The position numbers and the translations under genes are program-made. From Clostridia bacterium (GTDB lineage: Bacteria > Bacillota > Clostridia > Oscillospirales > Acutalibacteraceae), in contig JAFQEL010000012.1 in assembly GCA_017399065.1 (NCBI GenBank), positions 1-64,000 of the forward strand: DNA of 64,000 nucleotides. The letters run 5' to 3'. Below, piece by piece: positions 26,165 through 40,272 of this stretch; positions within the stretch are counted from its first letter, which is position 1, and every line of letters begins with the position of its first letter. The notes below the pieces were generated by a model. That model worked only from the letters and a program-made list of their open reading frames with translations, did not search any database and was not told the DNA's origin.

Positions 26165-26276
26165 AGCTCCCTTTGAAGGGAGCTGTCACGAAGTGACTGA
26201 GGGTTGTTGTAGAAACATATCAATATTTAATTCAGCAATCCTCCGTCACGGCATATCTCTTTTACGGAGAGGGAGC
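26165..26276 (+). repeat. 112-bp structured inverted-repeat element (MITE-like)
   Basis: The left end is AGCTCCCTTTGAAGGGAGCT (9-bp hairpin), then GTCAC GAA GTGAC, then TGAGGGTTG. The right end, read on the minus strand, starts GCTCCCTCTCC and ends GTGACGGAGGATTG, a diverged copy of the left end. No coding capacity inside. The architecture matches the ends of the DUF559 element at 39811-40253. Confidence 0.6.
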
Positions 26277-39765: not shown

Positions 39766-39806
39766 GCGAGCGGCACCCAATTTGGATGTCGCTCGCAGTG
39801 TTTTTT
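39766..39806 (+). terminator. terminator of the tcdA operon
   Basis: A 13-bp stem, GCGAGCGGCACCC with GGATGTCGCTCGC (two wobble pairs), then six T. Confidence 0.9.
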
Positions 39807-39810
39807 CAAG

Positions 39811-40253
39811 CCTCCCTTGCCTAAAGGGAGGGGGACCGCGTTAGCGGTGGAGGGATTTTTTGACAATAGCATCAATATATTCACAAACGCCTTCGAAATT
39901 ATTAAAAATTTCGTTATTGGGTATTCGTATAACTGTCAAATTTCGGGATTCTATTATTTCTGTACGAACTCTATCTTTTAATAACCCTTCGTTACTGTAA
40001 TGCTGTGAGCCGTCAAGCTCAATAATAAGCTGTGCGTCGTGACAGTAAAAATCAACAATATAGTTGTCTATGACTTTCTGCCGCAGAAATCTTACCGGAT
40101 ACGAGCGTAGAAAGTCATACCATAAATGCCGTTCTTCTTTTGTCATGTTTTTGCGAAGTGCTTTTGCATTTTCGGTTAATTTTGGATTGTGCTTTCTATC
40201 CATTTTATCCCCCTGTCAGTCTGACGACTGACATCCCCCTTTAGGCAAGGGGG
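39811..40253. mobile_element. 443-bp inverted-repeat element carrying a DUF559 gene
   Basis: Both ends carry the same 15-bp core CCCTTGCCTAAAGGG in inverted orientation (left 39811-39831, right 40235-40253), each able to fold on itself as CCTCCCTT...AAGGGAGG. A second hairpin sits just inside each end: ACCGC GTTA GCGGT (39835-39848) and GTCAGTC TGAC GACTGAC (40215-40232). Then comes GGAGGGAT or its equivalent AGGGGGAT on the other strand. The DUF559 reading frame fills the inside. No target-site duplication is evident. Confidence 0.6.
39841..40203 (-). CDS. DUF559 endonuclease-like protein
   Basis: A 120-residue protein of the DUF559/Vsr-like nuclease superfamily: N-terminal KALRKNMTKEERHLWYDFLR, then FLRQKVIDNYIVDFYC and LIIELDGSQHY with the Asp and Glu residues of the nuclease core. 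Biochemical function is not established for this family. Its ribosome-binding site AGGGGGAT and the codons for the last residues plus stop (SLHR, TAA) lie in the flanking inverted repeats, so gene and repeats form one unit. The family is common in clostridia and often multi-copy, as I recall; that is not shown here. Confidence 0.88.
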   Translation of the reverse strand: MDRKHNPKLTENAKALRKNMTKEERHLWYDFLRSYPVRFLRQKVIDNYIVDFYCHDAQLIIELDGSQHYSNEGLLKDRVRTEIIESRNLTVIRIPNNEIFNNFEGVCEYIDAIVKKSLHR

Positions 40254-40272
40254 ACTTTAAATCTCTTTAAGT

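Follow-up and report, generated by a model that had tools for sequence, protein, structure and literature searches.

Comparison across genomes shows, as far as can be read from sequence, that a DUF559 gene and the hairpin-forming repeats at its two ends are co-inherited and have diverged in step. DUF559 itself is a widespread domain without an assigned function. The element that led us to this association lies in the window, by which we mean the whole 64-kb stretch of clostridial DNA that was analysed, and it is best read as the gene-bearing member of a REP/REPIN-type family that also has scattered gene-less singles and pairs. Such an element, made of a REP-like repeat, a DUF559 gene and an inverted repeat, is probably a small mobile unit, a REP-type system in which a nuclease partner would cut its own hairpins.

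Architecture of the window element

The repeat-bounded unit extends from 39811 to 40254. The sequence-only reading had described it as a 443-bp element; the bounding by repeats is as described, and the length is one base more, 444 bp. Two inverted repeats of two hairpins each, at 39811-39856 and 40207-40254, bracket the single gene between them, a DUF559 gene on the minus strand. The features are the following.

39811-39831 (+): outer hairpin of the left end, CCTCCCTT-GCCTA-AAGGGAGG, from the inverted-repeat match and folding
39835-39848 (+): inner hairpin of the left end, ACCGC-GTTA-GCGGT, with the DUF559 stop in its loop, from sequence and folding
39849-39856 (+): inner tail of the left end, GGAGGGAT, a degenerate direct copy of the 3' arm of the outer hairpin
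39841-40203 (-): DUF559 gene (Pfam: PF04480), 120 aa, predicted Vsr/EDxHD-like nuclease
40207-40214 (-): AGGGGGAT, Shine-Dalgarno sequence of DUF559, made by the inner tail of the right end
40214-40233 (+): inner hairpin of the right end, TGTCAGTC-TGAC-GACTGACA, from folding
40234-40254 (+): outer hairpin of the right end, TCCCCCTT-TAGGC-AAGGGGGA, with a loop inverted relative to the left end

The 15-mer CCCTTGCCTAAAGGG is found exactly at 39814-39828 (+) and at 40237-40251 (-), as part of a longer inverted repeat of 25 nt (39804-39828 and 40237-40261) that is 88% complementary. The rest of the 64-kb window contains no match with fewer than three mismatches. Five exact copies exist in the genome (2.64 Mb), and the three outside the element are all without a gene. 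Both ends fold as two hairpins, the left one at 39811-39831 and 39835-39848 (-23.2 kcal/mol) and the right one at 40214-40233 and 40234-40254 (-24.4 kcal/mol). The inner tail of the right end, ATCCCCC, is again a repeat of the arm of its outer hairpin, and the same inner-tail plan is present in relatives. The start context of the gene reads AGGGGGAT-AAA-ATG, with AGGGGGAT positioned 3 nt before the ATG at 40203, and at the other end of the gene the loop of the inner left hairpin contains the stop codon TAA (39841-39843). The inverted 15-bp core, the second hairpin inside each end, the ribosome-binding site taken from one repeat and the stop supplied by the other had all been proposed earlier, and each of them was recovered here. 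Rfam gave no match at this locus, neither a GTAG nor a CTAC tag is present in 39811-39860 or 40205-40254, and the CGTC tag is absent from both ends. Elsewhere in the same window, another repeat class is represented at 26165-26250 by a pair without a gene, GCTCCCTTTGAAGGGAGCTGTCACGAAGTGACTGAGGGTTG ... CAATCCTCCGTCACGGC.

The open reading frame matches PF04480 with an E-value of 3e-29 and 101.5 bits, against a Pfam gathering cut-off of 20.6, and we did not find a second full-length DUF559 in the genome of the window. The top solved-structure matches of its AlphaFold2 model (pLDDT 88) are 3hrl (E 3e-6), which is NGO0050 and itself a DUF559 protein, and 3r3p (E 5e-5), which is the homing endonuclease I-Bth0305I; the Vsr structure 1vsr aligns with a TM-score of 0.63 but a weak E-value. 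The catalytic-type residues E24, D51, E62, D64 and H68 are invariant in 59 sequences. Fold and conserved residues support the prediction of a Vsr/EDxHD-like PD-(D/E)XK nuclease, and with it the Vsr-like fold that the sequence-only reading had named; a relation of YcjD/DUF559 to Vsr was already known (PMC1189080). The dN/dS of DUF559 is 0.04-0.19 in the 12 pairs with finite dS, and the gene is therefore maintained under purifying selection. The sequence search of the PDB also gave weak matches to the cholera and heat-labile toxin B chains, with E-values of 0.05 and above, which were set aside as chance.

The ends at other DUF559 genes

DUF559 is patchy among the relatives, with 0 to 5 matches per genome, and nearly all copies inspected there have the same kind of ends, in differing sequence classes that include CTCCCTTGTGTAAAGGGAG, CTTCCCCTCAAGGGGAAG, CCTCTCCTGAAAGGAGAGG, CCTCCTTTCAAAAGGAGG and others. 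Clostridial units often combine a 5' end of the type GGAGGTGGCA..TGACGGAGGGA with a 3' end of the type CCCTCAGTCA..TGACAGCTCCC, and many ends read CCTCCGTC..GCCACC. The GGAGG of such units belongs to the 5' repeat and precedes the start codon by a few bases; the stop codon is positioned in the 3' repeat or just before it. Units lacking the 5' repeat were also found (L040, L041, L013, L015 and L016). Other short palindromic families occur at or near the same sites in three loci (L073 at about 1340-1480, L257 and L228), with the sequences GATTCTTCGC..GAATGACA and TGTAGGGCAGGGGCTTGCCCCTGCC.

The clostridial genes were compared with 320 control genes, which came from 398 kb of sequence in the same genomes. 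Across the gene, the inverted-repeat score was 14 or more for 27 of 44 DUF559 genes and for 4 of 320 controls (OR 125, p 4e-25). The REP motif TC[AC]GTC..G[AC]CA[CG]CT lies within 250 bp on either side of 34 of 44 DUF559 genes and of one control gene, and C-rich hairpins were present on both sides of 49 of 71 DUF559 genes and of none of the controls. These controls in practice refute the reading that intergenic repeats gather by coincidence round any small, recently acquired gene. REP-like repeats are indeed intergenic and common in some of these genomes, as that reading supposes; the control counts and a repeat class that tracks the clade of the gene, not the genome, make it highly improbable.

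The association is not confined to Clostridia. In 80 more loci, mostly from Proteobacteria, GC-rich palindromes flank DUF559 too, and ends were found at the DUF559 genes of Neisseria, Sinorhizobium, Azospirillum, Sphingomonas, Novosphingobium, Photobacterium, Deinococcus, Synechocystis and Pseudanabaena. These palindromes include the arm sequence a third time, as in CTCTCCCCGC-GCGGGGAGAG-GGCTA-GGGTGAGGGG. Of 88 non-clostridial DUF559 genes (Alpha-, Beta- and Gammaproteobacteria, Deinococcus, Cyanobacteria and others), 61 (69%) are bracketed by inverted repeats, compared with 4 of 171 in-locus controls (2%; p 9e-33). In two Deinococcus plasmids (L065 and L070) the DUF559 unit occupies different junctions of one hpa operon.

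The E. coli member is ycjD, a DUF559 gene between sapF and fabI, at which repeats remain downstream only. In MG1655 (L166:1880-2290) three repeat-like units, CCCTCGCCCC..GGGGAGAGGGTTAGGGTGAGGGG, were found between ycjD and fabI, and E. coli genomes have a median of 18 places with the last of them. Its copy number, its length and the naming of box C at fabI (envM) make it probable that this last unit is box C. The published copy number of box C is 22-32 (PMC2267715), to which the median comes close. E. coli strains without ycjD were considered as clean empty sites and rejected, as eefRABCD occupies the place instead.

The similarity of the hairpins rises with the similarity of the DUF559 proteins. 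For 66 clostridial loci the Mantel rho is 0.57 (null SD 0.06; maximum of 999 permutations 0.19), and leaving out the 21 syntenic pairs, whose outer flanks can be aligned, changes it to 0.56. For the set drawn mostly from Proteobacteria rho is 0.27 (null SD 0.06, null maximum 0.20). Hairpins have a similarity of 0.74 to those of the nearest DUF559 in another genome, against 0.38 when compared with paralogs from their own genome (p 6e-7). The best relative of the window protein illustrates this: it has 72% identity, belongs to another genus (L029 in genome G020), and its hairpin type is identical to that of the window element. The exact 15-mer is found in G000 and five times in G020 and in 0 of 10 congeners, 9 of which have full or degenerate DUF559 matches. 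The link is strong, not absolute, as the 15-mer also has 11 copies in G035 and one or two in each of four more genomes. Read from these sequences, the hairpin type goes with the clade of DUF559 and not with the host.

Occupied sites, empty sites and gene-less copies

Within the genus, a DUF559 unit is present in some species and missing in others at three sites. In G003 (L074) the window site keeps the ThiF-like gene, orf190, the terminator and the HAD gene and has neither repeat nor DUF559; in G010 and G006 the ThiF gene directly adjoins the HAD gene, and G001 keeps a repeat remnant. The empty relative at this site is only about 72% identical, too little to place the insertion borders to the base. 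At the site between DUF896 and an isomerase gene, a DUF559 gene with its repeat pair (about 513 bp) is present in G003 and G008, and gene and repeat pair are absent together in 9 other congeners; AAATAA stands at both borders of this insertion, an A/T-rich sequence that could be chance. The site at the S51 peptidase is filled in G001 and G010, and the unit is absent in G000, G003, G004, G005 and G008. Comparison of sister species thus shows the unit as present or absent at the same site, and as having moved insofar as aligned sequences can tell.

The repeats are short, palindromic, dispersed and intergenic, and they also occur as inverted pairs of fixed spacing, as is described for REPs and REPINs in the broad sense. 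The gene-less pairs have the same ends, with a spacer of about 30-45 bp, and their spacing is constant per genome, with for example 67-71 bp between units in G004 and 82-83 bp in G012. Among 245 genomes of the order, at least three REP motifs were found in 41 of the 63 genomes with a full-length DUF559 gene and in 16 of the 182 genomes without (OR 19, p 6e-18), a statistic that ignores kinship and includes repeats beside DUF559 itself; at a threshold of 10 repeats the OR is still 16. Some REP-rich genomes have no full-length DUF559, namely G100 (58 copies), G122 (90), G204 (14), G132 (11) and G097 (10), and therefore the enzyme can be absent now, as is expected after gene loss or in incomplete genomes. 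In one congener with two REP motifs genome-wide, a broken DUF559 (L030, G006:C54) looks as if gene and repeats were decaying together.

In genome G026 a DUF559 unit that has lost most of its gene is present twice, with an identical internal deletion (L225, G026:C37:3350-4000). The two copies have different outer flanks and lie about 300 bp apart, and as just two nearby copies they suggest movement in trans without proving it. Nine gene-less pairs of the same genome lie within a larger element, itself repeated, whose ends are GGGCTGTTGCA / TGCAACAGCCC (L216-L224); it is a composite of two repeat families. Many of the pairs in G026 ride in this GGGCTGTTGCA-ended element, so part of their spread has other causes.

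Y1 transposases were considered as drivers of the repeats and rejected: they are present in some genomes, but no Y1/RAYT (Y1_Tnp) match was found in the REP-rich genomes G013, G038, G095 and G149, and 3 of the 4 Y1 loci inspected had no REP motif. This bears on the alternative that the repeats are the target, spread by another enzyme, and that a free-standing homing DUF559 cuts pairs of the class it belongs to, with a copy of the gene entering the spacer of such a pair. The gene-less pairs do resemble a filled unit minus its gene, the fold matches that of I-Bth0305I, and some DUF559 genes have no 5' repeat. At the empty DUF896 sites and at the window site of G003, however, gene and repeats are absent together and therefore the repeats were not waiting there; the four genomes without Y1 transposase and the enrichment of repeats in genomes with DUF559 speak against it as well, and we consider this alternative unlikely.

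A second alternative is that DUF559 is a Vsr-like repair or defence nuclease, with repeats that serve as regulatory or terminator hairpins, stabilising its expression or insulating it. The repeats provide the ribosome-binding site and sit at the 3' end of the gene, as this would have it, and PADLOC gives a weak match to a type II methyl-directed restriction enzyme (E 1e-8). Moreover, the Caulobacter protein VsrA, a related DUF559, was proposed as a mismatch-repair nuclease and, on genetic evidence, causes an SOS or DNA damage response when a cytosine methyltransferase is missing (PMC12907096). Beside the window gene, however, no methyltransferase gene was seen, and dispersed gene-less copies, a repeat class that matches the DUF559 clade across genera, and filled and empty sites would all be left unexplained, which makes this account quite improbable.

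The preferred reading remains that of a mobile unit of gene and ends. The flank enrichment, the co-divergence and the occupied and empty sites lend strong support to the earlier suggestion that the gene has evolved as one unit with its repeats. Of what the sequence-only reading had put forward for checking, hairpin ends were found at other DUF559 genes, and empty sites were found in congeners for the window unit and for two other sites. It had counted it against the idea if the repeats occurred mostly apart from the gene and there were no empty sites. Most repeat copies do lie away from DUF559, which is no refutation because it is expected of REP-type non-autonomous copies.

Relation to known repeat systems and possible mechanism

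The closest comparison is the REP/REPIN-RAYT (TnpA-REP) system, in which, likewise, an element of one gene has short inverted palindromes on its two sides, singlets and constantly spaced pairs without a gene are numerous, and the repeat class matches the partner gene (PMC3116915, PMC3686654, PMC8266576). Unlike in REP-RAYT, the enzyme is a DUF559 protein with a predicted Vsr/EDxHD-like fold in place of an HUH Y1 transposase, a GTAG tag is missing from the ends, and each end has two hairpins and a third arm copy. The DUF559 system would work like REP-RAYT and differs from it in two defining features, the Y1 transposase and the GTAG tag. The CGTC REPs are palindromes found across phyla, for which a survey in 2013 found no dedicated transposase (PMC3733652). 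DUF559 ends are REP-like palindromes as well, and the CGTC..CCA of clostridial flanks resembles them loosely only. The strict pattern (CGTC tag, stem of 8-9 bp, loop of 4-5 nt, tail CCA) was found in 0 of 88 non-clostridial DUF559 flanks, and with the window ends lacking CGTC we do not assign the repeats to the CGTC REPs. I-Bth0305I and Vsr share fold and catalytic pattern with DUF559, which differs from them in being free-standing with its own hairpin ends, outside any intron or intein. In E. coli the pairing of ycjD with a box C-like repeat is again a DUF559 gene with a repeat, but one with downstream repeats only. Among the open-access papers searched, we found none that links DUF559 to repeats.

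That DUF559 acts on these ends as a mobilising or homing nuclease, as had been suggested for the window protein, is plausible. The protein would recognise its own hairpin class, probably in single-stranded or cruciform form during replication, and would cut or nick at the hairpin as Vsr and EDxHD relatives do on their targets. We infer this cutting of its own ends. Host repair or recombination would then copy the unit, or gene-less derivatives of it, to new places, so that the whole would operate as REP-RAYT does, with a different and unrelated enzyme. To our knowledge, no strand-transfer or joining step is known for a lone PD-(D/E)XK-type nuclease, and therefore host repair must supply the rest; this copy step is the weakest link of the mechanism. 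More generally, we lean slightly towards DUF559 proteins of many phyla, with E. coli YcjD, being a second, RAYT-independent family of enzymes that create REP-type repeats and spread them, with clade-specific hairpins.

For many palindromic repeat families of bacteria, box C of E. coli included, we know of no established origin. Short palindromic repeats fill the intergenic space in many bacteria, and according to the 2013 survey whole classes of them have no dedicated enzyme (PMC3733652). The association described here gives the domain a likely role and the repeats a likely maker. It can be tested directly, as a crystal structure exists (3hrl, NGO0050) and ycjD lives in E. coli K-12. If DUF559 proteins do create and spread such repeats, DUF559 would be the missing enzyme for many palindromic repeat families, among them box C, and may thus stand behind a large class of bacterial repeats.
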